A stretch of DNA of 20,224 nucleotides. It comes from a virus. Below are positions 4,517-20,224 of the stretch, in pieces. Under the pieces are notes generated by a model that was not told where the DNA came from, searched no databases, and saw only the letters and a program-made list of their open reading frames with translations. Position 1 is the first letter of the stretch. Every line of letters starts with the position of its first letter. Position numbers and translations under genes: made by a program. The stretch covers positions 1 to 20,224 of IMG/VR virus record IMGVR_UViG_3300024259_000185; one strand, given 5' to 3'.

Positions 4517-4880
4517 TGGTGGAGGTGTCGGGAGTCGAACCCGAGTCCAATATGTCTCTCTACTTCTGTCATTCACAAGGTTATCTAGTTTTTCTAAACC
4601 AGCAAAATAATCTGCAATATCCCTTATCCTATGCAGTCTCGGATATCCACCTGCTATAAGCAGGGAGCCATTATGGTTTATTGTAATGTCAGAGGAACCA
4701 CCCTCTTAGTCGCTATTGGTTAATAAGGTCAGCAACAACCCCAGAACTACGCAGCTTGTGCGTAATTCAACTCCACATTATCGTTGGCGTTTAAAAAATT
4801 GAATGTTTTTTACTGTGCCTTCATTCATCACAGCCTTGCACAGAAATGCTTCAACACAATGTCAAAACCTGTTCACCCCC
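4517..4880 (-). ncRNA. ssrA: tmRNA (transfer-messenger RNA), one-piece
   Basis: The 364-nt RNA has every hallmark. The 5' end GGGGGTG pairs with CACCTCC near the 3' end, and the third pair is G-U, the alanine identity element. The T arm is TCGGG, loop TTCGACT, CCCGA. Discriminator A and an encoded CCA (4519-4517) follow. After the 5' domain comes an H-type pseudoknot: CTGTGC/GCACAG (4843-4838 with 4818-4813), and loop TGAATG (4827-4822) pairs with CATTCA (4805-4800). Next is the resume codon GCC and a 13-residue tag reading frame. It rescues stalled ribosomes: alanine is added, the RNA switches templates and the product is tagged for proteolysis. A sigma70-like promoter lies just upstream and YkuK/Smr genes precede it. 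Large-phage tmRNAs are known, for example in some mycobacteriophages. This one is complete and probably functional. Confidence 0.97.
4747..4788 (-). other. tmRNA tag reading frame: ANDNVELNYAQAA
   Basis: Fourteen codons from the resume codon GCC to TAG, 18 bases after the second strand of the first pseudoknot's inner stem. The tag is ANDNVELNYAQAA. It starts AND as in many bacterial tags, and ends AQAA where most end in ALAA. The final AA is the part read by ClpX in known bacteria, so the degron looks kept, with Gln in place of Leu. Confidence 0.93.
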
Positions 4881-4940: not shown

Positions 4941-5411
4941 TTATTTATTATGTTTGTCTGCTACAGATGTAGCTGCGAAAGCATCTGGCTTTATTTTACA
5001 AGGGAAGCCAACTCCTTTAGCATATCCAACCAACATATCAGAGAATCTGCTTGTTGCTTCTTTTTTATCGGAAGCAGAAATATCTAAATGAAGTTCGATG
5101 TTCACAGCAGGGCATTGTCCTAAGATATTTAAAGCAGTGTTTACTGTGTTCTCAACTTCATATGTGATTCTCTCCATAAGAGTTGGGAATTTTGTTACCT
5201 TGAAGCGGGTTCGTTTAAAATAATAACGTCCTCCGATCTGGTCATTTGCTCCGTGGAGGCATATAGCAGTAGAGTAAATACATTCTTTTTTTACAATATG
5301 ACTGTCAGTCCCAATATATACTTGTCCTTCTTTGGAAGAGTGCTCTTCTATTTCTTTTAGAATATCTTCGTAAGTTGTTTTTTCGTGGGAGCCGTTTGAC
5401 CAGAGGTCCAT
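4941..5411 (-). CDS. YkuK-family (DUF458) RNase H-fold protein
   Basis: This 156-residue protein has the first-strand motif VYIGTDSHIV (31-40, Asp36), which starts RNase H-fold enzymes. It then has ICLHG, a YFKRTRFKV strand, a long helix with ERITYEVENTVNTAL, the strand NIELHLDISASDKKEATS with further acidic residues, and the family ending KPDAFAATSVADKHNK. This order matches Bacillus YkuK-type proteins, which are predicted RNase H-like and of unknown cell role. AAAGGAACAAG before the ATG supports the start. It lies between the Smr-domain gene (upstream) and the tmRNA (downstream). That suggests a role in RNA turnover or processing, but this is inference. Confidence 0.8.
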   Translation of the reverse strand: MDLWSNGSHEKTTYEDILKEIEEHSSKEGQVYIGTDSHIVKKECIYSTAICLHGANDQIGGRYYFKRTRFKVTKFPTLMERITYEVENTVNTALNILGQCPAVNIELHLDISASDKKEATSRFSDMLVGYAKGVGFPCKIKPDAFAATSVADKHNK

Positions 5412-6019: not shown

Positions 6020-6688
6020 TTAGATTGGAGCGACTTCGCTTTCATCAGACATCCAATTTTGTAAATATTGTTGGTAGTTTGCAATCATTAAATCTTTAAA
6101 CTTTTGTCTCGTATCACCTGTAAGTGGAGAATAATAGTTGCCTATTTGTTTTTCTACACTCTTCCAAGCGCGGTCGGCGTATTCTTTTCCCGTGAAATCC
6201 GAGCCTTCATATTCTTTACCGGGAATTTTCTTCTCTTCATCTTCCAACTCTTCTTTGGAAGGTCTTTCATCTTCAGGAGGAATCATAGCAGGTTCGGTTT
6301 CAAGCTCATCATCATCTTGTACGGAAATGTTAATTTCCTCTTGTTCTCGAAGTTTGTTTGGTTCTTGTGTGTCTTGCTCCTCAAAAAAATCATTTAGATA
6401 TTTTAAAAAATGGTCTTCAAAAGATTGTTTCTCCTCCGGTTCCATCAAGAGACCCACCTCATCATAAACTTGTGTGGTGGTTGCTTCTAGTGCTCTATCT
6501 GCGGCGGCTTCGGCGGTTGTTGTAGGTTTATACTCTCCCTGCTCCATAATAAGATTGCGAATAATAGAGCGAAGTTGTTTTTCTTCTTTAAGAATCTCTT
6601 GCTCTTCTTTCATAACGACAGAGATATGCTCTCTAATCAGTTGTCTTAACTTCATTTCTTGTAAAAATTCTTCTCTATTTATTTGCAT
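6020..6688 (-). CDS. Acidic coiled-coil protein, probable virion or scaffold component
   Basis: This 222-residue protein starts MQINREEFLQEMKLRQLIRE, then a Glu-rich helical stretch with a second copy-like helix QLRSIIRNLIMEQ (39-50). A very acidic linker (about 105-160) with many Glu/Asp and few aromatics follows, and then a compact C-terminal helix-rich region with FTGKEYADRAWKSVEKQIGNYYSPL. Its charge and helix content resemble prohead core or scaffolding proteins, and the N-terminus carries the same type of tag as the other late proteins (see findings). GAGGATAA before the ATG supports the start. The upstream gap carries an AT-rich late-promoter-like motif. Function inferred from composition and neighbours only. 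Confidence 0.55.
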   Translation of the reverse strand: MQINREEFLQEMKLRQLIREHISVVMKEEQEILKEEKQLRSIIRNLIMEQGEYKPTTTAEAAADRALEATTTQVYDEVGLLMEPEEKQSFEDHFLKYLNDFFEEQDTQEPNKLREQEEINISVQDDDELETEPAMIPPEDERPSKEELEDEEKKIPGKEYEGSDFTGKEYADRAWKSVEKQIGNYYSPLTGDTRQKFKDLMIANYQQYLQNWMSDESEVAPI

Positions 6689-6715
6689 TGAATTATCCTC
6701 TTGATAATATTATAT

Positions 6716-6726
6716 ATTATAAGTAT
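6716..6726 (-). promoter_or_regulatory. AT-rich promoter-like motif before the acidic protein gene
   Basis: The minus-strand gap between the beta-rich structural gene and the acidic gene holds AATACTTATAAT followed by TATAATATTATC. It resembles, less exactly, the ACTACTTATAT motif found before two other late genes. It lies 27 bases before the ATG. Confidence 0.35.
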
Positions 6727-7550
6727 TAAGTTGTTACCTTATAAGGAACATTTTTCTTTCTTAAAGAGATTGGACCTTTTATAGCTGTACTGAATGGTAG
6801 TTGAGGAACACTTCTTCCAATTTGATTGACTCCTACCTCGAACGCTCTAATGGTAAAATCACCTTCGACGGCGAACTCATCACCTCTATCGTTTATAAAC
6901 CAAGGTTTACGGAGAACAAGGACAGGAGGCTTGGAATCAGAAGGACCGTCGATAAGATATGTGTTTTGACCAGAGGGTGCAGTAAATGGATTTCCGGCTC
7001 GGTCATAGGTGTAATCTAATATTGCAATAGTGACATATCTTCTTGTCATACAATGAAATTTAGCCAACTCGTTAGCAGAAAGAGTTAAAGTGTGATATTC
7101 AGCCCCGGCTGTTAATGTGTAGTAATAATTTGATCCATCAATATAATAAGCAGCACTATTAGTCCTAAACGCGGATTTCCAAGCATTTGCTCCTGTCCAA
7201 GTATTCCAAGGTGTCGCAAAATTAGTATAATCAATACTAGCTATAGAAATTCTGCCATCACCTGTAACGGAATTACAACGGATTTTTAACTGGGGATTAT
7301 CACCTAATCTAGACAAATTGCTAGGAATTTCAAACTGCAAAAACGCTCTATAAATAGCTGGGACTAAAAGCGTGGCATCTCCATTGGTACTCCCGACTTT
7401 AATGACAGACGAAGGTGAAGTAAAAGACCCTAATCCGTTCCAAGTAGGATTCCATAGAACATTGTAACTGGTTACATGACCAGAGTTTGTAGTACCCGCA
7501 AATGTTACAGGTGCTTCTGTGGTGTAACCACTCAGCCGATAATCAGCCAT
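6726..7550 (-). CDS. Beta-rich structural protein (fibre or baseplate-like)
   Basis: This 274-residue protein has no signal peptide and a beta-rich composition: many Thr/Ser/Gly/Asn and aromatic residues. Residues 65-95 (AIYRAFLQFEIP) resemble the FLQFDI strand of DNRLRE/CBM96-like beta-sandwich modules, with later strands at SNYYYTLTAGAEYHTLTL and KPPVLVLRKPWF. The basic tail has NVPYKVTT. Such modules are common in phage tail or fibre proteins and in secreted glycan-binding proteins. Its start overlaps the end of the metallopeptidase gene (TAAATG). Virion location is inferred from the neighbours and the fold-like composition. Confidence 0.55.
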   Translation of the reverse strand: MADYRLSGYTTEAPVTFAGTTNSGHVTSYNVLWNPTWNGLGSFTSPSSVIKVGSTNGDATLLVPAIYRAFLQFEIPSNLSRLGDNPQLKIRCNSVTGDGRISIASIDYTNFATPWNTWTGANAWKSAFRTNSAAYYIDGSNYYYTLTAGAEYHTLTLSANELAKFHCMTRRYVTIAILDYTYDRAGNPFTAPSGQNTYLIDGPSDSKPPVLVLRKPWFINDRGDEFAVEGDFTIRAFEVGVNQIGRSVPQLPFSTAIKGPISLRKKNVPYKVTT

Positions 7551-8150
7551 TTACTTACACCATTTTTTCACCAATTTGTCAAAGACGATTTGTCCTTTTT
7601 TAACAGCGAGTGATTCGTTAAGAGGAGTTGTTGTTTCTTCGTTAGTTGTTTTCTTTTTCATACCTTTTTTGGTCGTAAAAGCCTTCTCTCCTGTACGATG
7701 TCCATCTTCAACTTCGTCTTGGTCTTTATCTGCAACATAAGCTTCGTCTTCTTTAATTGCATCTTTTTTGAAGCGACCCATATAAGTATCATCATCATCG
7801 TCACCGCCCACACCAGACATTCCTGTGTTTTGGTCTGCACCTTCTTCCATTCCTTCATCTTCATATTTGTCATGGTCGTATTCTGCTTCATCACGCTCGT
7901 GGTCTCGGTCGCCTCTTAAAGCGCGGAGGTGATGCTCAATCTCTTTGATGTGGTCATCGTCAGCGTGTTCGTTCTTCCATTGGTGCCATGCTTCTTCTTC
8001 GCCACTATCTTCAGTGACAGTATCTTCTTCCATATAGTCGCGCTTACTAGCGCCACAATTTGTTTCTTCTACTGCCTCTTCTGTAGTTTTATTTTCAACA
8101 ACCCGCTTAATGGCTTCGCGAATTGCCTTTCTTAAAGTTTGCTCGTTCAT
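7551..8150 (-). CDS. Possible internal-start product: acidic 199-aa protein
   Basis: Inside the metallopeptidase frame, AAGGAG (8165-8160) lies nine bases before an ATG at 8150. A product from that start would begin MNEQTLRKAIREAIKRVVEN, the same type of tag that opens other late proteins here. It would hold only the acidic part: clusters of Asp/Glu with GDDDDDTYMG, then a Lys-rich tail ending KKWCK. Either two proteins arise from one frame, or the long protein is a fusion of two once-separate genes that kept the old start signals. It is in the same frame as the 566-residue protein, so sequence alone cannot tell. Confidence 0.45.
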   Translation of the reverse strand: MNEQTLRKAIREAIKRVVENKTTEEAVEETNCGASKRDYMEEDTVTEDSGEEEAWHQWKNEHADDDHIKEIEHHLRALRGDRDHERDEAEYDHDKYEDEGMEEGADQNTGMSGVGGDDDDDTYMGRFKKDAIKEDEAYVADKDQDEVEDGHRTGEKAFTTKKGMKKKTTNEETTTPLNESLAVKKGQIVFDKLVKKWCK

Positions 8151-9251
8151 TGTTTTGTTCTCCTTTTTTAAGTAACTTTCATAGGTTCTAAGACACATGT
8201 TACCTTTATCATAGGCTTCACGTTCCATTTCTCTCAAATGATCATCTGTCTCTATATAGTTCTCTCCGACGTTAAAATCTCTATCAAATTCCCCTCGACA
8301 GTTCTGAGCATGATGCACAAGTTCATGGGAAAAAGATCTAATAATATCTTTGGGATGTCTTCCATCGACAAAAATAGTCATTTGTTCGTTTGCTGGGCTA
8401 TAATAAGCCGTCTTGCCAAATGTGTCTTTGGCGTTGTTTGGGTCTGAAATCAAAGTTAGTTCTACGGGTCTATCAAAACCCAAATATTCTTTTGCGTAAG
8501 GATAGAACTTGTTTATTTCACTAATCAATTCAGCAACATCTGTTTCTGCAAGGTTGGCGATGGAGAGTTGTTCTTTAACGATTTTTTTGCTGCCCATTGT
8601 ACTAAGTAATTCTTCAACTTCCTCTTCACTGAAATTTTTTATTCTTAAGAGATCAACCATGTGATCTTTTGAAATATCAACTCTGGCATTTATTTTTAAA
8701 ATTTTCTTTCCTACCAAGTTTTTAAGAGCTTGCACCTTGCTCTTGTCTCTTTTGGAGATTGAAGCAAGTTTTGGAATAAGTTCGTTTTGGACAGATACTT
8801 CTGTAGGAGAATCTTTTAATTTATTAGAAGAATATGTATTTTCCACGTCGGATAACGCCGTATACTGAGCAATTATTTCATCTACTTGTTCAGGATATTT
8901 TACCAGAACTTTAGCAAAATCATGAGCATATTTGTCTATTCCCATACTATAATTGAATTTAGCAAGAAGTTTTTTTACTTCCGGGTTTTTCAAAATATCT
9001 TTCTTTTGGTCTTCAGGGTATGGGACAGGTATGTTAACAGAATTAATATCCGAAGGGCTGACCTCTCCTTCACCTTGAGTAGCATCAGCTTCTTGTTCTT
9101 TGTCAAAAAGTGCGCCAATTACAGGAATTTTAGTTAACCAATCTAGTGAAGCTTCATCTAAATTGTTGGCTTCTTTCACAATATGACTCCCTGTTTGGGT
9201 AATAACTTTCTTTTCCATTTTTTTAGTTAATTTTATGTTTGTTATCGTCAT
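7551..9251 (-). CDS. Zinc metallopeptidase (HExxH) fused to an acidic virion-type domain
   Basis: This 566-residue protein has two parts. Residues 1-365 are the enzyme. The active site is RSFSHELVHHAQNCRGEF, with the HExxH zinc ligands at His309 and His313 and the catalytic Glu310. The third ligand is probably Glu343 or Glu345 in LREMEREAYD. Three helical modules (about 90-245) precede it. Residues 368-566 start MNEQTLRKAIREAIKRVVEN and are extremely acidic and repetitive, ending in a basic KKGQIVFDKLVKKWCK. GGGGGAG five bases upstream supports the ATG at 9251. An internal AAGGAG and ATG at residue 368 look like a second start, described separately. It may process virion proteins or host cell wall proteins. 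Confidence 0.72.
   Translation of the reverse strand: MTITNIKLTKKMEKKVITQTGSHIVKEANNLDEASLDWLTKIPVIGALFDKEQEADATQGEGEVSPSDINSVNIPVPYPEDQKKDILKNPEVKKLLAKFNYSMGIDKYAHDFAKVLVKYPEQVDEIIAQYTALSDVENTYSSNKLKDSPTEVSVQNELIPKLASISKRDKSKVQALKNLVGKKILKINARVDISKDHMVDLLRIKNFSEEEVEELLSTMGSKKIVKEQLSIANLAETDVAELISEINKFYPYAKEYLGFDRPVELTLISDPNNAKDTFGKTAYYSPANEQMTIFVDGRHPKDIIRSFSHELVHHAQNCRGEFDRDFNVGENYIETDDHLREMEREAYDKGNMCLRTYESYLKKENKTMNEQTLRKAIREAIKRVVENKTTEEAVEETNCGASKRDYMEEDTVTEDSGEEEAWHQWKNEHADDDHIKEIEHHLRALRGDRDHERDEAEYDHDKYEDEGMEEGADQNTGMSGVGGDDDDDTYMGRFKKDAIKEDEAYVADKDQDEVEDGHRTGEKAFTTKKGMKKKTTNEETTTPLNESLAVKKGQIVFDKLVKKWCK
8160..8165 (-). promoter_or_regulatory. Internal Shine-Dalgarno inside the metallopeptidase gene
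   Basis: A strong AAGGAG on the minus strand stands nine bases before the in-frame ATG at 8150. Ribosome sites this good are missing before several of the real gene starts nearby, so it is unlikely to be chance alone. Confidence 0.55.
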
Positions 9252-9494
9252 TTAAGCTCCCCCATACGGTCCTGGAGCGCTTAATGCTCTGGTGTTTTTA
9301 GTTTTTTTAGGATAAGCAGGTCCAGGGTCTTGTGGTCCTGTTTTTAAATACTTATTTCTACCTTTTACATAGCCTTTTTCAACTGCTTTTTGAAAATCTT
9401 CTTCTTCGTCGAGAATTTCTTCTTCGAGTTGGTCGTTCACTACCTCTTCAGCAAGAAATTTCTTCCATTTTTCTAAAAGTTGAGTTAATTTCAT
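9252..9494 (-). CDS. Small late protein with WKKFLAE tag
   Basis: The 80-residue protein starts MKLTQLLEKWKKFLAEEV, an amphipathic helix with the W-K-K-F-L-A-E motif seen at the start of other late proteins here. A short acidic stretch follows (LEEEILDEEEDFQ), then a Gly/Pro/Lys-rich tail ending SAPGPYGGA. No Shine-Dalgarno site stands before the ATG; the stop of the upstream gene is three bases away. Its stop abuts the metallopeptidase start, so the two are probably coupled. A small internal virion or scaffold protein is possible. Family not recognised. Confidence 0.55.
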   Translation of the reverse strand: MKLTQLLEKWKKFLAEEVVNDQLEEEILDEEEDFQKAVEKGYVKGRNKYLKTGPQDPGPAYPKKTKNTRALSAPGPYGGA

Positions 9495-9497
9495 AAT

Positions 9498-9776
9498 TTA
9501 AATAGTTTTTTGGGCTTCCAAAAGCAATTCTTCAATCTCAAAGCCATGTTTTTTTGATGCTAGTTCAATTGCAGTTGCATAAACGTCTATATCTTCTCTC
9601 AATGCTGTTAATTCATTAAATAATTTTTCAATTTCTTTTTCTTTGTGGTCTAAATACACCGTTGCGGTGCCGAGAGCCATAAAAGTTTCTTTCCACACTT
9701 CGTGATTGCTCGCATCTACAATATAAGCAATGCCCCAGCGCTCAGCAAGCTCCATAGGGGTGATTTTTTTAGACAT
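9498..9776 (-). CDS. Small helical protein, unknown function
   Basis: With the ATG at 9776 the protein has 92 residues and starts MSKKITPMELAERWGIAYIV. It continues with WKETFMALGTATVYLDHKEKEIEKLFNELTALREDIDVYATAI, a long heptad-like helix likely to form a coiled coil, and ends with LLLEAQKTI. I chose this start because CGAGG stands six bases upstream and the longer reading from 9824 would overlap the nucleotidyltransferase gene by 47 bases. The start is one base after the upstream stop. No family recognised; a structural or assembly chaperone role would fit its size and helix content. Confidence 0.6.
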   Translation of the reverse strand: MSKKITPMELAERWGIAYIVDASNHEVWKETFMALGTATVYLDHKEKEIEKLFNELTALREDIDVYATAIELASKKHGFEIEELLLEAQKTI

Positions 9777-9777
9777 T

Positions 9778-10566
9778 TTAAACCTCGGGTTCTGATTTTT
9801 CTTTGATAGACTGTAGATTATCATAAGACATAAGCTTCAAATCGTTAAGTTTTTTCAAATACACGCTTCTTCTAAGAACTTTAAAAGCCAAGTTTTCAAC
9901 AGAGAACGCTCCGCCGGTTTCAAGACCAGATTTCCTCATATTTCTTATTTTTTCTTTCAAAAAGATAGCCTTTTCATGAACTTTTTCGTATTGTTCTTCA
10001 TCAAAGTCTCTTTGAATTTCATCAATCTCGTCCATAATGCAATTTGCCTTAATTGTCACACACTTATAATCAATTTCTGGGTTGAATTTGCTTGGTTTTT
10101 TCAGCCATTCACCCTTTTTTACTGAATAAATACCTGTTGCGACGTGCGGCTCAAGGTAATCTTGTACATACATCTCAACTTCGTAGTCCTTGACCCTAAT
10201 ATCGTGATCTCTATTCCATACACTTTTGATAGAATTGAAGTATTTTCTTACTAATTCTGCATCTTCGTTCACATCTGTGTAATCAATTACAATGTGAAGG
10301 TCAACGTCAGAAAACTTTGACCAATTATAGTTAGCCAAAGAACCAGTAAAGATAATGTCTTTAATCTCTACATGTTCTAAATCTTGATTTTTCCAAAAAT
10401 CATTAGCTATTTCAAGTAATTTTTCTCGGATATCAGACTTAAGCTGATCTTTCTCATCCCAAATCTCTCTATCAAGGTCTTCTTTTACACGTAGAGAAGG
10501 GAGAGAAAGAATTCTCCCTTCCAAAATTGCGTGTTTGAAAGCTTTCCAGTGATTTTTCATATACAT
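9778..10566 (-). CDS. Nucleotidyltransferase-fold protein (pol beta-like)
   Basis: The 262-residue protein has the Pol-beta/MNT motif IIFTGSLANYNWSKFSDVDLHIVID (71-95): G-S in the first loop and Asp87 and Asp89 as metal ligands in the D-x-D-L. The third acidic residue may be in DYEVEMYVQD. Before the domain comes a tag MYMKNHWKAFKHAILEG. The C-terminal half is helical and charged. Such enzymes add nucleotides to RNA, proteins or antibiotics; the target here is unknown. The ATG at 10564-10566 follows the zinc-ribbon gene stop by two bases with no clear ribosome site; a second ATG six bases later is also possible. Similar genes occur in large marine phages, in my general knowledge. Confidence 0.75.
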   Translation of the reverse strand: MYMKNHWKAFKHAILEGRILSLPSLRVKEDLDREIWDEKDQLKSDIREKLLEIANDFWKNQDLEHVEIKDIIFTGSLANYNWSKFSDVDLHIVIDYTDVNEDAELVRKYFNSIKSVWNRDHDIRVKDYEVEMYVQDYLEPHVATGIYSVKKGEWLKKPSKFNPEIDYKCVTIKANCIMDEIDEIQRDFDEEQYEKVHEKAIFLKEKIRNMRKSGLETGGAFSVENLAFKVLRRSVYLKKLNDLKLMSYDNLQSIKEKSEPEV

Positions 10567-10568
10567 AA

Positions 10569-10772
10569 TTAGTTATCAAGCGTGTTAATTACTTCTCCAC
10601 ACTCATTGCATTTGAATACCTGGATGGGGATCATCATTTTTTGACCTGTGGGGGATTGTAAAGCAGATACTTTCTTGATAATGAAAGAAGGAGTAAAATA
10701 CCCGCCTCCGCAACTTTCGCATAACGCGCTATCTAATTCTTCAACATCTAAATTAAAATTAAGTTTTTCCAT
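10569..10772 (-). CDS. Zinc-ribbon protein
   Basis: The 67-residue protein carries two Cys pairs: CESCGG at residues 18-21 and CNECGE near residue 55. The spacing of about 36 residues with beta-like strands (GYFTPSFIIKKV, IPIQVFKC) is that of a zinc ribbon. It could bind nucleic acid or stabilise a larger complex. AGG six bases before the ATG is a weak ribosome site. It lies between the small tag protein gene (10802) and the nucleotidyltransferase gene in the same direction, so all are probably on one late transcript. Confidence 0.75.
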   Translation of the reverse strand: MEKLNFNLDVEELDSALCESCGGGYFTPSFIIKKVSALQSPTGQKMMIPIQVFKCNECGEVINTLDN

Positions 10773-10801
10773 AGTTTGCCTGTGGTTAATTGGTTTTCTA
10801 T

Positions 10802-11101
10802 TTAATTTTCAACTTCTACTTGTTCAACTTCTTCGTCCCACTTGTCGAGTTGAATTACAATCTTTCTTAAATAAGGCTTGAGAAGTGGAGATGCTCTGCG
10901 GATGTCCTCCGCTCCCAGTTTCTTAAAGACTTGTTGTAATAAATTTAAAATTTCCAAAGGACGATCTATTTTATCTACTGCTTGATCAGGAACTCTATTA
11001 AAAAGTGCATCGACGTCCGCTTGGTCGTCGTCGTTGACTTCTAGAGTTCTCTGTAGTTCTTCTTTAATGAGGTTTTTTAATTTTTCTTTTGTAATCTTCA
11101 T
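10802..11101 (-). CDS. Small late protein with LKNLIKEEL N-terminal tag
   Basis: The 99-residue protein starts MKITKEKLKNLIKEELQRTL, a strongly amphipathic helix, then an acidic linker and a helical C-terminal half with LEILNLLQQVFKKLGAEDIRRA and KPYLRKIVIQLDKW. The end is EEVEQVEVEN, so the charge pattern is basic start, acidic end. AAGGAG at a good distance supports the ATG, and the ACTACTTATAT motif lies 18 bases upstream. This kind of N-terminus recurs in this window and resembles capsid-targeting sequences. No function can be named. Confidence 0.6.
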   Translation of the reverse strand: MKITKEKLKNLIKEELQRTLEVNDDDQADVDALFNRVPDQAVDKIDRPLEILNLLQQVFKKLGAEDIRRASPLLKPYLRKIVIQLDKWDEEVEQVEVEN

Positions 11102-11119
11102 GTTACAATCTCCTTGTGA

Positions 11120-11130
11120 ATATAAGTAGT
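11120..11130 (-). promoter_or_regulatory. Late-promoter-like motif ACTACTTATAT
   Basis: The minus-strand 11-mer ACTACTTATAT lies in the 30-base gap between the MopE/vWA lipoprotein gene and the 10802 gene. The same 11-mer occurs before the 754-residue virion-like gene. Both stand about 18-23 bases before an ATG, with a ribosome site between, where a T4-type late -10 box would lie. Confidence 0.45.
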
Positions 11131-11131
11131 C

Positions 11132-13045
11132 CTAATTTCCGCAAACTTCCGTATCAATTATCTCCATGAGATTGACGTACATGTCTGTAGGATTATGCTT
11201 AAGTTCATACCACTTACCGCCTGACTCGGCAGCCAATGGCTCCCAACCGGTCTTTCCGAACGGCATTGTGGAGTTTTTACTAGTATAATTGGTGAATGTG
11301 TAGATTGATGTGTCTGAACTAGATGCTATCATTTTTAATAAAATGCTCTGTGTTACTCCATCGTAATTTGAATTCCAGCTTGCACCTAAAATATTCTTTG
11401 GAATCATATAGCTTTGTCCATGTTCATCTGAAAATACGATAATAACTCTCTTCGCATTTGGTCTCCAATTTACTTTAAAATTTTCTAACTCAGGTATCGA
11501 TTCTGCAATAGACTGACCAACCATCGTTGCCCAGGTTAGCTCATCCAACTGCCAGGGCTCTGTCGCTGATAAATCCATCAAAGAAAGGTATACTGCATCA
11601 TACAACATTTCGAACTGTCCGTTCATAGTATTTTTGTCTAATGACGAGAAATTAGACATAAAGTCTTCGAAAGAGTTAAGGTCGCTAACCAATTCTAAAT
11701 AATTATTATTACCTGCTTGGGCTGGGACTCTAGGTCCTACAATCAATCCCCACTGAATCACTGATTCATCTTTATAGTTTTTGGCGAACTGGTTTAACGC
11801 AATCAAAACAGCTTCGATTTCTGAACTCATAGATCCAGACCAATCTACAATAAAAAGAATATCAGTGTCCTGCATTTCTTTATCTTGGTCAACTTTACCA
11901 TCACAGTCTTCGTCTACACCGTTGCACTGGTCTTCTAACAAGGGCAATATTTCATCTTTGCAATAGCCAGCTATAAACTGTCCTGAATCAGTATAATTCC
12001 CCCACGAGCCTTCGAAACATGTAGCGACCCCGGCTTGACAAATCCCTACATCCATAGTCTCAGGAGGACCTGTGTAACAGACTTCATATAAGTCTTCATC
12101 GATAAGTTGGTTGCAGTTGTCATCATGATTGTTACAAAGCTCATAAGGAAGCGGCTTGCCTCCAAAAGGATCACAATTAGGGTCCACTGGTAATTCCCAG
12201 AAACACATAGCGAAGCAAGGAGTGAAGCCTAGATTACTACAATCAGGGTTCTTGCATTCACATGTTTTGTATCCTGAACCACACAACAAAGGATCTTCTT
12301 CGCATGGGAATAATGTCCCAATATCTTGGATAGTACACAAACAGTCTAATCCTTCATCAATAGCTCCATCGCAATCGTTGTCTATGCCATCACAGATCTC
12401 AGACTCTGGCTGTTGAGCTGTACAAGAACCCCAACTGCCATCGACACAAAGCTCATAACCGTTGTCACATATAGTGTTGCAAGGTCGAATTAAATCTTCA
12501 TCAGTATCCCCATTACAATCATCATCAATGTCATTGCATATCTCAGGAAGTTCTGGACCACATTCGTTACAAGCGTTTAATTGTCCTTCATCTATTAATC
12601 CATCGCAGTTATTATCAATACCATCGCACACTTCCTCAGTGCATTCAGTCTCACACTTACCTTCTTTGATATATCCTTTGTCACAATAAATTGTTTTCTT
12701 CCCAGGAAGCCCAGCATCTGTGGTGCAGTCTTCTTCTCCCATCTTGAATTGACTGGGATCACATTCAAGGAACTCTTCACACTCGCTGATTGAAATAACT
12801 TCCGCAGGCTCTTTACAAATATCCTTTACAATAGCTATTCGAAACAAAGGACCGGAAACACCAGGACAGAAATAATATTCTGTTCTATGACAGTCTAATT
12901 TATATTGCTCTGGTGATATAACTGGAGTAGGAGGATCATTAATTGCTTGTTGAGGTTTTTCAACAATTTGAGGCTTCTCTAAAAATGCCTCGCTGCAACC
13001 GCTCAAAACGATAGCAGCAGCTAGAATTGCTTGTGTAATTTTCAT
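11132..13045 (-). CDS. Lipoprotein with five MopE-type metal-binding repeats and a vWA domain
   Basis: The 637-residue protein has a lipoprotein signal, with lipobox LSGC and Cys17 as the likely lipid site, then a Pro-rich linker. Five copies of the repeat E-x-C-[DN]-x-x-D-[DN]-[DN]-C-[DN]-G-x-x-D-E follow at about 138-154, 168-184, 216-232, 302-318 and 372-388. Two strong examples are EVCDGIDNNCDGLIDEGQ and EICDGIDNDCDGAIDEGL. Next is a vWA domain (about 394-630) with an intact MIDAS start DWSGSMS and a later KRVIIVFSDEH. MopE repeats are proposed to bind Cu or Ca, and vWA domains bind partners through a metal ion. It probably faces the periplasm or cell surface. The A/T repeat region lies upstream and no Shine-Dalgarno site is visible. 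The family is typical of deltaproteobacterial and myxobacterial surface proteins, so it suggests the host. Confidence 0.85.
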   Translation of the reverse strand: MKITQAILAAAIVLSGCSEAFLEKPQIVEKPQQAINDPPTPVISPEQYKLDCHRTEYYFCPGVSGPLFRIAIVKDICKEPAEVISISECEEFLECDPSQFKMGEEDCTTDAGLPGKKTIYCDKGYIKEGKCETECTEEVCDGIDNNCDGLIDEGQLNACNECGPELPEICNDIDDDCNGDTDEDLIRPCNTICDNGYELCVDGSWGSCTAQQPESEICDGIDNDCDGAIDEGLDCLCTIQDIGTLFPCEEDPLLCGSGYKTCECKNPDCSNLGFTPCFAMCFWELPVDPNCDPFGGKPLPYELCNNHDDNCNQLIDEDLYEVCYTGPPETMDVGICQAGVATCFEGSWGNYTDSGQFIAGYCKDEILPLLEDQCNGVDEDCDGKVDQDKEMQDTDILFIVDWSGSMSSEIEAVLIALNQFAKNYKDESVIQWGLIVGPRVPAQAGNNNYLELVSDLNSFEDFMSNFSSLDKNTMNGQFEMLYDAVYLSLMDLSATEPWQLDELTWATMVGQSIAESIPELENFKVNWRPNAKRVIIVFSDEHGQSYMIPKNILGASWNSNYDGVTQSILLKMIASSSDTSIYTFTNYTSKNSTMPFGKTGWEPLAAESGGKWYELKHNPTDMYVNLMEIIDTEVCGN

Positions 13046-13059
13046 AAAAATCGATTGTC

Positions 13060-13086
13060 TATATATAATATATATAATATATATAA
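13060..13086. repeat. Three tandem 9-bp AT repeats upstream of the MopE/vWA gene
   Basis: TATATATAA occurs three times head to tail, and the run continues as TAATATTAC. It lies 15-41 bases before the ATG of the MopE/vWA lipoprotein gene, so it may act as an AT-rich promoter with several -10 choices, or as a site of easy melting. Copy number may vary between isolates. Confidence 0.6.
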
Positions 13087-13101
13087 TAATATTACTTATT
13101 T

Positions 13102-13290
13102 CTATTTCCTAAGTCTATACTTAAGATAAGCTTTATATACTCTTTTCTTTAAATTAGATTCAAAGTATCTTAAACTTAGGAAATAAAATATTTTATCTAA
13201 AAAGAAAGATAGAAGGAATGGTATAATAAAGAATCTTCCTTTCTTATTGGTTTTAACAACTCTCCAGATAAAGCTAAGTTTATTATTCAT
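13102..13290 (-). CDS. Small basic membrane protein
   Basis: The 62-residue protein starts MNNKLSFIWRVVKTNKKGRF, has one hydrophobic segment with FFIIPFLLSFFLDKIFYFLSL (about 20-40), and a very basic tail ending KAYLKYRLRK. The start overlaps the end of the previous gene by eight bases (ATGAATAA), with GAGG a few bases upstream. Its tail would lie on the cytoplasmic side. Function unknown; membrane-active small proteins are common in phages for lysis or exclusion, but nothing specific is seen. Confidence 0.55.
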   Translation of the reverse strand: MNNKLSFIWRVVKTNKKGRFFIIPFLLSFFLDKIFYFLSLRYFESNLKKRVYKAYLKYRLRK

Positions 13291-13501
13291 AAGCCTCTAT
13301 TCTCCAATCATCATCATAAAAAATCTTATTAATAGGAAACCAGTATATTTTGTACAGTACCTGACTTTCCGATGTAGCTGTCCCTAAAACAATTCCAAAA
13401 TGACATTGTTCTACATCAGGGTCATGATGGTTTTCTTTAAGCCAATTTTCCTTAAATCTTACTAACTTACCAGTTTTAAATATTTCTATTGAAATAGACA
13501 T
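13283..13501 (-). CDS. Small SH3-like beta-barrel protein
   Basis: This 72-residue protein begins MSISIEIFKTGKLVRFKENW and then has CHFGIVLGTATSESQVLYKIYWFPINKIFYDDDWRI. The pattern F-K-x-G-x-L-V-x-[FW] then D/H-x-G-I-V-L then [IV]-x-[VI]-[YW]-[FW] resembles small SH3/KOW-like barrels frequent in marine phages. A paralogue-like gene lies at 14156-14410 on the other strand. The ATG overlaps the end of the preceding gene by 16 bases. Function unknown; such barrels often mediate protein or RNA binding. Confidence 0.55.
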   Translation of the reverse strand: MSISIEIFKTGKLVRFKENWLKENHHDPDVEQCHFGIVLGTATSESQVLYKIYWFPINKIFYDDDWRIEAYE

Positions 13502-13638
13502 TCCGTGTGTTTATAATTATACTTGTCTTTCATTATTCTTCTATCCATAACTACTTCAACTTTCTTATTATCTTTAAAGATTTCAGAAATTAACAAATGT
13601 AATTCCGTATAACCATGAGTAACTACAAACCTTTCCAT
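13486..13638 (-). CDS. Short protein (50 aa), unknown function
   Basis: The reading frame starts MERFVVTHGYTELHLLISEI and contains KKVEVVMDRRIMKDKYN, ending TECLFQ. AGGGGG nine bases before the ATG is a good ribosome site. It overlaps the next minus gene by 16 bases. The V-x-V-V-M-D-R-R strand-turn resembles small phage proteins with an alternating beta/alpha pattern, but no family is recognised. Real on balance because of the ribosome site and coupling. Confidence 0.5.
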   Translation of the reverse strand: MERFVVTHGYTELHLLISEIFKDNKKVEVVMDRRIMKDKYNYKHTECLFQ

Positions 13639-13669
13639 TATCCATTCCCCCTGAAACGCTTTTCTTATT

Positions 13670-13698
13670 TTGAAAAGAGTGAAAAATCATCCTTAAAT
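13670..13698 (+). promoter_or_regulatory. Sigma70-like promoter of the plus-strand island
   Basis: TTGAAA (13670-13675), a spacer of exactly 17 bases, and TTAAAT (13693-13698). The expected transcription start is near 13705. It resembles the tmRNA promoter in its -35 box and spacer and would drive the two plus-strand genes from 13785. Confidence 0.55.
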
Positions 13699-13720
13699 AG
13701 TCGAAAAAAATAAAATATTA

Positions 13721-13776
13721 AGGTCTCTTAATAAAAGACCTGTCTATGTATAGACAACACAATACTCTGGAGTATT
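13721..13776 (+). promoter_or_regulatory. Leader of three consecutive hairpins covering the ribosome site
   Basis: Hairpin 1: AGGTCT (13721-13726) with AGACCT (13736-13741). Hairpin 2: GTCTAT with ATAGAC (13742-13755), directly after. Hairpin 3: AATACTC with GAGTATT (13761-13776), perfect 7+2+7, and its 3' arm holds the GGAG ribosome site. Hairpins 2 and 3 have two-base loops, so they may rather be DNA operator half-sites. On the minus strand hairpin 1 is followed by a T-rich run (TTAATATTTTATTTTTTT), so it could also terminate transcripts coming from 14407. Confidence 0.6.
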
Positions 13777-13784
13777 TTAAAAAC

Positions 13785-14210
13785 ATGAAAAAATTAATGA
13801 TTCTAATAATTTGGCTCTCTTTGTCACTCCCCAGCACTTCTGCTACGGCAAATAAGTTTGTTCAAACAACCAATCAACTTCATAAATCAAAAAAGTTGAA
13901 TTATGTAGATACAGAAATTGGAAACACTTTAAATTTATATAAAATTTCTACTACAGATTCCAGCACAAAAAAGTTATATAATCCTTTAAATATTCAGATT
14001 TCCCAAACAAAGAATTTAACTTTAAGAGAAAGACGTGCATTAAAAAAGGCTCAGTTCTTCCAATCGCGCCGACAACGATCTTTTCGACGTAAGGCAAAAA
14101 AGTTCGACTTCTACCAAGAAAGAAGAAGGAAGAAATTTAAAAATCAAATGTATTTATGGAGATGGTTTCAAAAGAATCAGTTCCAACCTTTAAACAAGGC
14201 GACCTCGTAA
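13785..14210 (+). CDS. Secreted basic protein
   Basis: From the ATG at 13785 it is a 141-residue protein: MKKLMILIIWLSLSLPSTSATA gives a signal peptide with a likely cut after SATA. The middle is polar (Ser/Thr/Asn/Lys), and about residues 80-125 are strongly Arg/Lys-rich (RERRALKKAQFF, RRQRSFRRKAKKF, ERRRKKFKNQ). The GGAG is 12 bases before the ATG and is inside hairpin 3. A longer reading from 13746 would put residues before the signal peptide, so I reject it. Its end overlaps the next plus gene by 55 bases. A basic secreted protein might bind DNA, cell wall teichoic-type polymers or lipid A. Function unknown. Confidence 0.6.
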   Translation: MKKLMILIIWLSLSLPSTSATANKFVQTTNQLHKSKKLNYVDTEIGNTLNLYKISTTDSSTKKLYNPLNIQISQTKNLTLRERRALKKAQFFQSRRQRSFRRKAKKFDFYQERRRKKFKNQMYLWRWFQKNQFQPLNKATS

Positions 14211-14410
14211 AGTGGTGGTACTCCGCTCCTACAATACCACACACAGTAGATAAAGATGATATGGAAGCATGGGTGGACATAGGCATCGTGCTTACCGTAG
14301 AGAAGTGGGCAGGTGACGATGATATACGCAGTGTAATAGAAGTATACTTTGCTAAAGCCGGTTCTAACTGGTGTAACCCTAAAAGCTTAGAGCTAGTCAA
14401 TAGGTATTAG
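14156..14410 (+). CDS. Small SH3-like beta-barrel protein (plus-strand copy)
   Basis: The 84-residue protein has VPTFKQGDLVKWWYSAPT at the start, DIGIVLTVEKW in the middle, and VIEVYFAKAGSNWCNPKSLELV at the end. This is the typical F-x-x-G-D-L-V-x-W ... G-I-V-x-x-V ... [VI]-x-V-x-[FW] ... L-E-L pattern of small SH3-like phage proteins and is related in design to 13283-13501. The start at 14156 has no strong ribosome site nearby; a second ATG is six bases later. Its last four bases overlap the convergent gene at 14407. Confidence 0.65.
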   Translation: MEMVSKESVPTFKQGDLVKWWYSAPTIPHTVDKDDMEAWVDIGIVLTVEKWAGDDDIRSVIEVYFAKAGSNWCNPKSLELVNRY

Positions 14411-14640
14411 TGCTTTGTAAGAAGATAGATTTTACATTCGCCTTTTCTTTTTGCTTTCAACTTGGCGATTAAACGATCTTTATTTAATAGACTTGCTTCG
14501 CAGGTCTTTTTATTTATCTCTATTACAATTTTTTCTGCATGTTCGACTCGTGGCAGGCATACGGATAAACAAATACCGATTAAAATAATAATCAATAAAA
14601 TCGCTAACTTATAATCTAATCTTTTAAAAAACTTTTTCAC
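14407..14640 (-). CDS. Single-pass membrane protein, possible i-spanin-like or accessory
   Basis: This 77-residue protein begins with GTG: (M)KKFFKRLDYKLAILLIIIL, a basic N-terminus followed by one transmembrane segment (about 12-30), then a periplasmic-type tail with two Cys (KKTCEASLLNKDRL, KGECKIYLL). The GTGA overlap with the upstream gene (14637) implies coupled translation. The topology (N-in, short charged tail outside) fits an i-spanin or a small membrane anchor. Spanin partners were not found, so this is a guess. Confidence 0.55.
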   Translation of the reverse strand: MKKFFKRLDYKLAILLIIILIGICLSVCLPRVEHAEKIVIEINKKTCEASLLNKDRLIAKLKAKRKGECKIYLLTKH

Positions 14641-15059
14641 ACTTTATATTTCCACATCCACCCCCAACGTTTTCTTGTTTGTAGATAATCTACATCAAGT
14701 TCGTTAGTATAAGCTTCTTGTTCCGCTCTAATGCGGTGATAAGCTTTATTAGCAGCGGATGTGTATTCGCGACCACGAGTGCTCTTTTGACCCTCCCAAT
14801 CTTTCCTGTACTTAACAAGACCCCGCACCCAATCAAACAAATATAATAATATTAGTCCTACAACAAACGTTTCTAACGTTTGTTGAAAGTGGATGGTTTC
14901 ATGTCTCTTGGTGGTTTCATCCATTTCTCCTCGGGAGAATACAAGAAAGAAAATGGTAATGGCGCTGATGTTAAGTGGAGCGACTTTAGATAACCAGACG
15001 GGAATCTTAGAGTTTTCTATGAATAACGGCTTCCAATTTTTTGGTAATAATTTTTTCAT
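14637..15059 (-). CDS. Membrane-bound HExxH peptidase-like protein
   Basis: From the ATG at 15059 the protein has 140 residues. It has an N-terminal hydrophobic segment (ISAITIFFLVFS), then TKRHETIHFQQTLE with an HExxH zinc motif, directly followed by a second hydrophobic segment FVVGLILLYLFDWVRGL. RIRAEQEAYTNELDVDYL, whose RAEQEA may give the third ligand (Glu), comes before the end. HExxH immediately before a membrane helix is like small M48/M56-like peptidases. The ATG overlaps the stop of the 754-residue gene as ATGA, so I prefer it to a GTG 18 bases upstream. Substrate unknown. Confidence 0.65.
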   Translation of the reverse strand: MKKLLPKNWKPLFIENSKIPVWLSKVAPLNISAITIFFLVFSRGEMDETTKRHETIHFQQTLETFVVGLILLYLFDWVRGLVKYRKDWEGQKSTRGREYTSAANKAYHRIRAEQEAYTNELDVDYLQTRKRWGWMWKYKV

Positions 15060-17320
15060 TTTAAAAAGTTCCTCCACCCTTGGAAATGTTCATTCATCGC
15101 ATCGTCCCAAGATTTTCTTTCGGCATCAATAGCTGCTTGTTGTTCTGAACTTTCTTTCTCTTCAGTTTCTTTCTCATCCCACATGGAAAGATATCTTTTA
15201 GCAACGGTTGTATTATGAGCCATAAAATCTTCAAGCATTCCAGTCCAAGCTGCTTCGTAAGAGTCTTCAATTAAACTCCAGAACTTATCAACGTCTTGTA
15301 AGAAGCGCATGTTCCACTTAAGAGAAGCGTCTCTCAAAGGAATCTCAACATAGAAAGGGACTGTAAACTTTCCGCTTTCTGGATGATAGACCCTTTGGCT
15401 TGGAACAGTGGCGTAAGTAAAGTTGCCTAACTCGTAAGGATTATCCGCTTCTTGTAATGGAAGTTCCAATTGTTTATCAGCATCTTCTTCGGCTTTCTTG
15501 AAAATTTTTGCGATAGAAGATTTAAATCTTTGACGAGTTACACTATCGTCCATCAACCTAAGAAGCTTATTCTTTAAAAAGTCAATATAGCTTTCTTTCA
15601 TTCCACGCGACATACCAGTGAGTCCATCTTTTCTATCGTACCACTCGCCTGGTTTATCACCTGTCCCCATCTTGCGGGAAAGCTCAAAGAAATCAGCAGG
15701 GATGCGTGGCAGTTGAAGGTGAAGGTCGCCATAGGCAGTAATCTCTCCATCGCCAATCGTAATCTCATCAAAGTGTTTAAGATCTTTCTCAAGTTCAACT
15801 TGGATTTGTTGAGCATTGGCAAGTGCTTCAGATTTAAGAAGATTATTTTTATAGAGTTGGTTTAAGATTTCATCTTTTACAGCGTCGTAATTCTGGTCAT
15901 AACCTTGAACCCGGTTGGCAAAAGTTTCAAACCCGTCTGGTGTGCTGTCTTCATCATGATCTTGGGTAAAGTTCACACGGATAGAGAGAGCATCGTTCGA
16001 GCCCATTGCTCCTTTCTCACGATCCCAGACACCCCCCCATTCAAGCTCAATCTCATCAACATAAATATAGTTGTCGTCCATAGCTTGTCTGGCAATGTCA
16101 ATTACCGTCTCGTTTTCATCACCATTATAACTAAAGTCCGGTTCACCAACCCACTCATCTTCATCAATCTCATCAAACTCCCAAGTGATACCACCGGTGT
16201 AAGAATACTGACCTTCGTCATATTCATCAAACATAACATAAGCATGTTTTGCGTTTTGGTCAAACTCATCTTGGATTGCTTGAAAAGCAGCAGGGTCAGG
16301 ACCAGGAGGATTGAGTGAGATATTAGCAGAGCCTTGTTGTTCGATATCGCCTTTGATTCGAAGCAAAGAATCATAAATCCAAGTAGCAACTTCGTCACCG
16401 TCATCCAGATCAGGTTCTTCTTCTAAATCCTCGTAGGAATCAGACATCTTCGATACAATAGCTTTCCAAATACCAGGAACTTTCTTATCTTCTTCAAACC
16501 CCTCCTTCTGGGAAACTTCCCACAATTCGTTATACATCATCTGACCTTTGCCTGAATACTTTGTTCCGTCAAAAATGCCTTCAAGAACATTCACACCGAC
16601 AGCATTGTCCCATAAATCTTCATCAATAGAATCATCCGCAGCATTAAACATTTCTTCTAGCTGACCATCTCTGTCATAAACAAGTGCGATTTTCTTTTCA
16701 TTATTATCATCATCAAGGTGCTCCATGCGCACCATAACAAACCCTTTCCCATCAGCGGAATACTGGTCAAAGTAGTTTTGTGATTGTGTAGCAGAGATAC
16801 ACCATCGTGTAGCACGACCATAATAGCAAGAAGCATCAGTAGTATAAGGACGCACAGCAAAGAAGTCGCCGTTATCATAAACAATCTCCGACCCTTCCAT
16901 TGCTGTTTCTTTTTTCTTCTGCCTTTTTTCTTTGCCTGTATCGCCAAGCTTTTCTAAATCATCAAACAACTCTTTGACTGTCTTATATTGATAAAGATCT
17001 TTTTTCTTTAAACGTTGTTTGTTTAAGTGGAATTTTTTAACGCCATCTTTGGTCTTCTCAATAAAATCTTGACGAGCAGAATAAGAAGCCTGGTCTCTAA
17101 AAAAATCTGCTACCTTTTTAGCCATCCAACCAAGGTAAGCATTGTTACCACTCGGGTCTTTCGCTGAAAAATCATCGATAAGTCCTCTCTTGTCAAGCTC
17201 AACATACTTCTTCTTTACGTCTTCTAAACGTCCTTCTGCGAGAAGTTGCTCTTCTTCGGTAAGTTGTGGTTTTGTTCCTTCGTTAAGGAACCCTCTCCAT
17301 TTATTGTGATACAGCGGCAT
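15056..17320 (-). CDS. Large virion-like protein (754 aa) with WRxFL motifs at both ends
   Basis: The protein starts MPLYHNKWRGFLNEG and ends MNEHFQGWRNFLK, so the same W-R-x-F-L pattern is at both ends. A central motif CYYGRATRWCISATQSQNYF (about 165-184) with the following FVMVRMEHLDDD strand resembles the T-x-W-C-x-[AS] plus aromatic pattern seen in large phage proteins of unknown role. The middle (280-480) is very acidic, rich in Asp/Glu. The C-terminal part has VPFYVEIPLRDASLKWNMRFL. I prefer the ATG at 17320: a TTG two codons earlier has its ribosome site too close, while GGAG is eight bases before the ATG. The late-promoter-like ACTACTTATAT is 22 bases upstream. Confidence 0.65.
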   Translation of the reverse strand: MPLYHNKWRGFLNEGTKPQLTEEEQLLAEGRLEDVKKKYVELDKRGLIDDFSAKDPSGNNAYLGWMAKKVADFFRDQASYSARQDFIEKTKDGVKKFHLNKQRLKKKDLYQYKTVKELFDDLEKLGDTGKEKRQKKKETAMEGSEIVYDNGDFFAVRPYTTDASCYYGRATRWCISATQSQNYFDQYSADGKGFVMVRMEHLDDDNNEKKIALVYDRDGQLEEMFNAADDSIDEDLWDNAVGVNVLEGIFDGTKYSGKGQMMYNELWEVSQKEGFEEDKKVPGIWKAIVSKMSDSYEDLEEEPDLDDGDEVATWIYDSLLRIKGDIEQQGSANISLNPPGPDPAAFQAIQDEFDQNAKHAYVMFDEYDEGQYSYTGGITWEFDEIDEDEWVGEPDFSYNGDENETVIDIARQAMDDNYIYVDEIELEWGGVWDREKGAMGSNDALSIRVNFTQDHDEDSTPDGFETFANRVQGYDQNYDAVKDEILNQLYKNNLLKSEALANAQQIQVELEKDLKHFDEITIGDGEITAYGDLHLQLPRIPADFFELSRKMGTGDKPGEWYDRKDGLTGMSRGMKESYIDFLKNKLLRLMDDSVTRQRFKSSIAKIFKKAEEDADKQLELPLQEADNPYELGNFTYATVPSQRVYHPESGKFTVPFYVEIPLRDASLKWNMRFLQDVDKFWSLIEDSYEAAWTGMLEDFMAHNTTVAKRYLSMWDEKETEEKESSEQQAAIDAERKSWDDAMNEHFQGWRNFLK

Positions 17321-17342: not shown

Positions 17343-17353
17343 ATATAAGTAGT
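17343..17353 (-). promoter_or_regulatory. Late-promoter-like motif ACTACTTATAT
   Basis: Second exact copy of the 11-mer seen at 11120-11130, again on the minus strand in a gene gap, 22 bases before the ATG of the 754-residue gene and after the thioesterase gene region begins. Confidence 0.45.
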
Positions 17354-19847: not shown

Positions 19848-20224
19848 TTATTGTCCCTCTTTTTTATCTTGCATATAAGCCGCATCAGCCATTTCTTTCT
19901 TTTTCTTACCGCTTTTCCCTTTGAACTGTGGAGCTTTTGATTTTTTAAAATCTTTAACATACGCCCCTGCACCGTCTTTAGGGTTTAACACTTCTCTTAT
20001 TCCTTTGAGATCTTTTACGATATCTATTACTCCTTGTTCCGTTGTCCCTGGTCCAAAATCGCCGTCTAGTCCAGCTTTTACTTCAGGTAATCCATCATCA
20101 ATAATTTTAAGAATTGTATTTATAGTGGTTTTGCCGGGAACGTCGGGGTCAAAATTGTCCGATACGAGATCATATAATTCATCCCATACAGCTCTATTTT
20201 TGCTCCGCGCTTTTGCATCTACTG
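19848..20224 (-). CDS. Partial late protein, C-terminal part only
   Basis: The last 123 codons of a gene that continues past the right edge. They contain a helical part VWDELYDLVSDNFDPDVPGK, then TINTILKIIDDGLPEVKAG, and a Lys-rich tail with SKAPQFKGKSGKKKKEMADAAYMQDKK. The tail motif Q-F-K-G-K-S-x-K-K-x-x-x-M-A-x-A-A recalls C-termini of proteins in large marine phages, in my memory only. The stop TAA at 19850-19848 directly precedes the ATG of the fibre copy 1 at 19847. Function unknown. Confidence 0.6.
   Translation of the reverse strand, partial: VDAKARSKNRAVWDELYDLVSDNFDPDVPGKTTINTILKIIDDGLPEVKAGLDGDFGPGTTEQGVIDIVKDLKGIREVLNPKDGAGAYVKDFKKSKAPQFKGKSGKKKKEMADAAYMQDKKEGQ

Follow-up and report, generated by a model that had tools for sequence, protein, structure and literature searches.

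It is already known that T-even phages use capsid-targeting peptides and that anti-restriction proteins are among their cargo (PMC3012670, PMC12373910, PMC9391042). In T4, residues 4 and 7 of the tag act in targeting and residues 8 and 10 in processing, the prohead protease gp21 cuts after [LI]-x-E, and the tagged protein Alt undergoes a further cut at the C-terminal end (PMC9026906). Two other systems are comparable: in P1, the N-terminal residues of DarB are enough to bring a reporter protein into the head (PMC9024508), and in phiKZ and SPN3US, ejected proteins are processed after x-x-E by a gp21-related protease (PMC10052503, PMC5694885). Here we analyse the complete 20,224-base IMG/VR record IMGVR_UViG_3300024259_000185 (the window), a fragment of a phage genome in which proteins of unrelated type begin with similar short peptides, hereafter the tags. 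As occurs with the tags of T4 IPI to IPIII and Alt, these N-terminal peptides share a hydrophobic/Glu pattern with an [LI]-x-E. Our results suggest that they are probably T4-type capsid-targeting propeptides, whose cargo would be clipped in the head and injected with the DNA.

The window has no near match at the DNA level among 50,697 phage records. A protein search returned one close relative, the 185,507-base contig IMGVR_UViG_3300037876_000116 (the sister), which was examined over its full length and whose copy of a 754-residue tagged protein is 92% identical. Gene starts were taken from a simple open reading frame (ORF) caller, giving 31 proteins in the window and 219 in the sister. As in T4, the sister encodes a prohead protease of the gp21 family (Pfam Peptidase_S77, E 5.5e-32; phrog_207, E 7e-59; hereafter S77). 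It also encodes a terminase and, at 90620-92479, a gp23-type major capsid protein (phrog_138, major head protein, E 4.7e-70); an acidic protein whose gene (89505) precedes that of the capsid protein is termed scaffold-like from its position and composition only. In terms of the capsid protein, Flavobacterium phage immuto and Microcystis phage Mel-JY01 are among the nearest isolated phages.

The first-pass annotation had proposed two classes of shared N-terminal tag, W-[KR]-x-F-[LK] and L-x-x-[LI]-I-[KR]-E, represented by six peptides. All six lie in minus-strand sequence and five begin predicted proteins (Table 1), but the sixth, MNEQTLRKAIREAI, is internal. Both classes are N-terminal beyond chance. 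Within their first 25 residues, 3/31 window proteins have W[KR].F[LK], where its frequency in the remainder of the proteins predicts 0.13 (mean of shuffled N-termini 0.04, maximum 1), and 2/31 have the L-class pattern, where 0.00 is predicted. In support of this, the same search on the sister gave 2/219 for the W class and 4/219 for the L class, with 0.19 expected for each. A looser L pattern marked 8/219 sister N-termini (0.19 expected), at least one of which (164623) by eye carries no tag. Two further traits that had been claimed fared less well. [LI]-x-E as an N-terminal mark (14/31 in the window with 8.2 expected and a shuffle maximum of 14; 71/219 in the sister with 65 expected) is no more N-terminal than elsewhere and uninformative by itself, and the amphipathic helix exceeded shuffles at the 5% level for two of the six window peptides and not for the other four, so it was rejected as a defining trait. 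Searches with the bare tags gave no match in cultured phages by tblastn, the query being short and of low complexity, and only weak matches (E 0.0075 or worse) in a PHROG scan.

In IMG/VR, both classes stand on dozens of unrelated proteins. The L class was searched with a DNA pattern for MKITK..LK.IIKEE, present in at least 120 stretches, and the W class with a pattern that left the gap between the ATG and W-K-x-F-L-x-E free; 80 loci were listed for each, and the tag counts that follow are among the matches listed. The L pattern yielded 147 distinct tagged reading frames (138 after removing similar ones), followed by different proteins with a median length of 112.5 residues. Positions 16-26 were free in this search; residue 16 is hydrophobic in 92% of the tags, residue 19 in 67% and residue 20 in 57%, and 46% have Glu at residue 22. 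Of the 138 tags, 50 contain L/I/M20-x-E22 (shuffled mean 3.5, maximum 13), and 33 the full repeat, with hydrophobic residues 16, 19 and 20 plus E22 (shuffled 0.3, maximum 3). The L tag is therefore a duplicated unit, with one copy at residues 8-14 and the other at 16-22; the 99-residue protein of the window keeps the first unit and not L20-x-E22. For the W class, 41 of the 84 matches were in frame, 21 of these with one common gap that places the Trp at residue 8. The consensus is MK(L/K)I(L/M)(E/N)(N/E)WK.FL.E, with S, A or G directly after the Glu in 16/30.

The two classes share one register (W8/L8, F11/I11, L12/I12, E14), with the spacing of T4 IPII and IPIII, which begin MKTYQEFIAEA (Y4, F7, I8, E10); this T4-like spacing was set by the search patterns for the W class and the first L unit, and was free at L positions 16-22. 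The [LI]-x-E junction is accompanied by hydrophobic residues at -6 and -3 from the Glu. A head propeptide of the phiKZ/SPN3US type, cut after A-X-E or S-X-E, was rejected, because the tags have L or I, and not A or S, three residues ahead of the predicted cut; those phages differ in using A-X-E or S-Q-E and in having propeptides often longer than 100 residues. A general form of the motif, [WYFLI]..[FLIVM][LI].E, was counted in the first 30 residues of the proteins of several genomes. It was found in 6/31 window proteins (0.28 expected; two of the six, at 4941 and 13486, are not tag-like), 16/219 in the sister (5.7 expected), 20/207 in immuto (4.0 expected, p 1.1e-8) and 10/156 in 112 kb of T4 (2.6 expected), and was not clearly enriched in 100 kb each of SPO1 (5/128, 2.1 expected) and T5 (3/122, 1.9 expected). 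One could propose that such N-termini are convergent and play no part in targeting, their AAA-rich codons and charged helix favouring translation start or solubility. AT-rich phage genes presumably often have A- and K-rich starts, but the fixed spacing with L/I and Glu at search-free positions, the in-frame bias, the W8 register, the far fewer motifs in SPO1 and T5 and the tag swapping described below make this the least probable explanation of all.

Judged by sequence only, the tags are interchangeable with T4-like capsid-targeting sequences on the same cargo. The family of the 754-residue protein comprised 79 loci, reduced to 51 non-redundant viral-contig homologues after dropping four open ends and near-identical N-termini; 18 of the 51 have the strict motif in their first 30 residues (shuffled mean 2.0, maximum 8). 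Their starts include the T4-like MRFREFLIEY, the W-type MFNKIFEGYRKFLTE (by motif) and MQKILTEWRRYLNE (by eye), and the L-type MKNVIKQIIKEELQRLNE. The member from phage PA5oct, which starts MKLFEVFTLYED, is annotated as structural by electrospray ionisation tandem mass spectrometry (ESI-MS/MS). A model of the domain of the 754-residue protein (predicted local distance difference test, pLDDT, 82) matched this PA5oct structural protein and PcfJ-like proteins in BFVD; against the PDB, Foldseek gave nothing at E <=0.001 and VIA nothing at Z >=5.

The sister also carries, at 146356-148323, a W-tagged 655-residue protein with an S-AdoMet_lyase domain (Pfam E 4.9e-13; 49.6 bits, cut-off 28) and a second, L-class tag, MKISKSKLEQIIREEV, inside. 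This S-adenosylmethionine (SAM) lyase would be a virion-delivered anti-restriction enzyme. When its relatives were searched with the tag-less protein, the W tag was present on 36 of the 45 with a readable N-terminus, many of them near-identical (3 of 48 loci lacked the N-terminus and were not counted). Other starts are T4-like (MKSFQEFMVE, MVSTFSEYLQE and, in Mel-JY01, MQFKQYILGE). At the junction, Glu is followed by S or G in 45/45, although this Glu may also be a residue of the enzyme. In a similar way, the metalloprotease-like domain found in the window stands alone in Synechococcus phage B23, with the start MNYKQFLREST. Another W-tagged protein of the sister (302 residues, 158709-159617) is kinase-like (Pfam Pkinase E 5e-6, below cut-off).

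The nature of this cargo bears on whether the tagged proteins could instead be core or scaffold helpers, which would enter the prohead and then be digested or leave, with nothing injected. The acidic domains of two window products (222 and 199 residues), an L-like N-terminus on a small protein beside the sister protease (82710), and the tag motif that the proteases of immuto (FKGLLTES) and Mel-JY01 (VQKIIKES) bear near their own N-termini all fit this idea. However, a SAM lyase that passes the Pfam cut-off, a kinase-like protein below it, and metalloprotease-like and nucleotidyltransferase-like proteins are unlike scaffold, and the PA5oct homologue is retained in virions; we consider such a helper role unlikely.

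The capsid proteins themselves raise another possibility, that the tags guide their carriers towards the chaperonin instead of the head. The capsid N-termini of T4, the sister, immuto and Mel-JY01 have K-W (or Q-W) followed by L-L-E-G, which resembles the W class, and the N-terminus of T4 gp23 reportedly, by the title of a paper cited in PMC10052503, steers to the chaperonin. This idea leaves unexplained the conservation of E14 and E22, the tandem arrangement of the L class and the swapping with T4-type capsid-targeting peptides on homologues, and appears very improbable. In the capsid proteins, Q-[LI]-x-x-E lies close to where a cut is expected, the position of which was deduced from T4.

The association of the tags with a prohead protease was analysed in contigs of at least 28 kb (L-class set, n=33; controls, n=29; W-class pattern set, n=39, from which two in-frame non-tags were excluded). 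S77 was present in 22/33 L-tag contigs, compared to 4/29 random-start controls (p 2e-5), and in contigs under 90 kb in 10/18 compared to 0/22. It also accompanied the 754-residue family in 11/14 contigs of at least 93 kb, and the SAM lyase in 4/4 contigs of at least 100 kb and 2/34 smaller ones. Genes for gp23 capsid proteins were found in 23/47 tagged contigs and in 10/50 controls (9 of these 10 over the cut-off; 50 of 52 control contigs were used).

The tag genes may also share an upstream signal with scaffold-like, neck-like and sheath-like genes. ACTA[CT]TTA lies within 70 bases upstream of 14/219 sister genes, including 5 of 13 tag genes (p 5e-4); the others include the scaffold-like gene (89505), a gene with a head-tail-adaptor match (93607) and a gene judged by eye to encode a tail sheath (96321). 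Within the window, the motif stands before 4/31 genes, three of which are the tagged 80-, 99- and 754-residue genes, and in IMG/VR 8/30 W-class loci, 10/147 L-class loci and 0/79 control starts. Note that both the motif and the 13 tag genes were picked by eye with the data already in view, so the candidate late promoter shared by tag genes and scaffold-like, neck-like and sheath-like genes is a lead.

Several results weigh against capsid targeting. No S77 protease is encoded in the window, a 20-kb fragment. In contigs of at least 90 kb, the L-tag association is not significant (12/15 compared to 4/7, p 0.27), and neither is that of the W class in contigs of at least 28 kb (5/14 compared to 4/23 out-of-frame controls, p 0.19). 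Tagged contigs with a capsid gene mostly have one capsid type, the model matching in the same two pieces; therefore one lineage may dominate, and kinship may explain part of the S77 link. The general motif is weak in Mel-JY01 (9/229, 4.5 expected), and an aromatic-only form showed no enrichment in immuto, Mel-JY01 or T4. Moreover, none of nine homologues of the window's nucleotidyltransferase-like protein from other phages has a tag. The first-pass claim that the window's tagged proteins are packaged and injected is weakest for this protein; the capsid-targeting reading in general gains strong indirect support from the exact IPIII spacing, the S77 protease of the sister, the L-x-E at free positions, the swapping, the PA5oct homologue and the candidate promoter.

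Under the capsid-targeting reading, the tag, which consists of an aromatic or hydrophobic residue, two variable positions, a pair of hydrophobic residues, another variable position and Glu, would bind the scaffold core late in infection, and this binding would build the tagged protein into the prohead. The S77 protease would cut after [LI]-x-E, being expected to trim the capsid protein too, and the freed cargo would remain among the packaged DNA until the following infection, when it would be injected. A single targeting unit, W8 x x F11 L12 x E14, makes up the W class; the L class has two in tandem (L8 x x I11 I12 K E14 and L16 x x V19 L20 x E22) and would most likely be cut after E22. The sequences show the pattern, its place at the N-terminus, the S77 gene of the sister, the swapping and the candidate promoter; scaffold binding, cleavage and injection are what we infer from them.

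The tagged genes of the window are listed in Table 1. The acidic and protease-like domains share a 566-residue ORF whose own start is untagged; the adjoining upstream 80-residue ORF is tagged and is fused to it in the sister. The HELVH of the 566-residue ORF is an HExxH motif of metalloprotease type. MNEQTLRKAIREAI lies at residue 368 of this ORF, with no ORF start, and a second in-frame start there is plausible: AAGGAG precedes the internal ATG (GGAG at 8160-8163, 9-nt spacer), the same is seen before MSLNEETLRKAIREAI in the sister, and the acidic part after it is far better conserved in the sister than the part before the metalloprotease-like domain. Such a start would not be strange, because in T4 a short form of gp21 likewise arises by internal initiation (PMC9026906). 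The sister counterpart of the 222-residue protein lies at 6035-6697. For the nucleotidyltransferase-like protein, a sequence search of solved structures gave no match.

Table 1. Tags, tagged genes and candidate promoters in the window (aa, amino acids)
Feature	Position	Strand	Remark
Peptide MPLYHNKWRGFLNEG	start at 17320	-	begins predicted protein (754 aa)
Peptide MKNHWKAFKHAILEG	start at 10560	-	begins predicted protein; ATG further upstream would add MY
Peptide MKLTQLLEKWKKFLAEEV	start at 9494	-	begins predicted protein (80-aa ORF)
Peptide MKITKEKLKNLIKEEL	start at 11101	-	begins predicted protein (99 aa)
Peptide MQINREEF..LRQLIRE	start at 6688	-	begins predicted protein (222 aa)
W-class tag MPLYHNKWRGFLNE of 754-aa protein	17279..17320	-	predicted cleavage after E14, before G15; sister counterpart MSLYHDKWRGFLSE
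754-aa tagged protein	15056..17320	-	residues ~40-255: phage family matching PcfJ-like and PA5oct structural proteins
C-terminal W-R-N-F-L-K of 754-aa protein	15059..15076	-	kept in sister as W-R-S-F-L-K
Candidate late promoter ACTACTTA, upstream of 754-aa gene	17346..17353	-	motif ACTA[CT]TTA search
W-class tag MKLTQLLEKWKKFLAE of 80-aa ORF	9447..9494	-	pattern match
80-aa tagged ORF	9252..9494	-	in sister fused to next gene (638 aa)
Candidate late promoter ACTATTTA, upstream of 80-aa ORF	9499..9506	-	motif search
566-aa ORF	7551..9251	-	HExxH metalloprotease-like and acidic domain; own start without tag
HELVH motif of 566-aa ORF, residues 309-313	8313..8327	-	HExxH type
Possible second product, 199 aa, from internal start MNEQTLRKAIREAI	7551..8150	-	L-like tag and acidic domain
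W-class-like peptide MKNHWKAFKHAILE of nucleotidyltransferase-like protein	10519..10560	-	absent from nine homologues elsewhere
Nucleotidyltransferase-like protein	9778..10560	-	phrog_36119
L-class tag MKITKEKLKNLIKEELQRTLEV of 99-aa protein	11036..11101	-	pattern match
99-aa L-tagged protein	10802..11101	-	predicted ORF
Candidate late promoter ACTACTTA, upstream of 99-aa gene	11123..11130	-	motif search
N-terminal MQINREEFLQEMKLRQLIRE of 222-aa protein	6629..6688	-	second such helix next: LRSIIRNLIMEQ
222-aa acidic protein, N-terminus L-class-like	6020..6688	-	predicted ORF

Other minus-strand genes of the window include a ClpP-like protease (1896-2516) that matches PHROG head maturation protease families (E 3.9e-45), the sister having its S77 protease too; a transfer-messenger RNA (tmRNA) gene (4517-4880) with the tag peptide ANDNVELNYAQAA; a 637-residue lipoprotein-like protein with Pfam Cu-binding_MopE repeats (11132-13045), which has a 637-residue counterpart at 46-1959 of the sister; and a lysine-rich protein cut off by the window end (19848-20222). 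In Mel-JY01, a gene beside the prohead protease and scaffold (L278:22429-23595) resembles, on inspection by eye, one for an ADP-ribosyltransferase, and its position could suit an Alt-like cargo.

Compared to T4, the tags described here have a Trp at residue 8 or form a 22-residue tandem, have many more carriers, and precede cargo types that we did not find reported for T4; the C-terminal WRNFLK of the 754-residue protein recalls the C-terminal cut of Alt. P1 differs in phage type and protease. A literature search, with subscription journals mostly outside it, found papers on tags of this kind for T4-type, P1 and phiKZ-type phages and for no others, and nothing useful on virion proteomics of immuto; nor did it return any description of the tandem L class, the W8 register, the wide spread among uncultured phages or a SAM lyase as cargo. 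We also lean slightly towards the broader view that distant, uncultured T4-like phages share one delivery code, in which the T4-like Y/F..F[IL].E, W8 and tandem-L forms would be interchangeable dialects, marking dozens of proteins of unknown role as injected cargo. If true, the sharing of one scaffold-binding code across very distant T4-like phages becomes testable, and laboratory phages would gain new packaging tags for protein delivery. A signature of 14 to 22 residues would then give a predicted list of DNA-delivered proteins among the anonymous genes of uncultured large phages, with SAM lyase, kinase-like, metalloprotease-like, nucleotidyltransferase-like and PcfJ-like proteins readable by tag alone. 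Counter-defence enzymes are expected among them, and the tagged SAM lyase would drain the restriction cofactor on entry.

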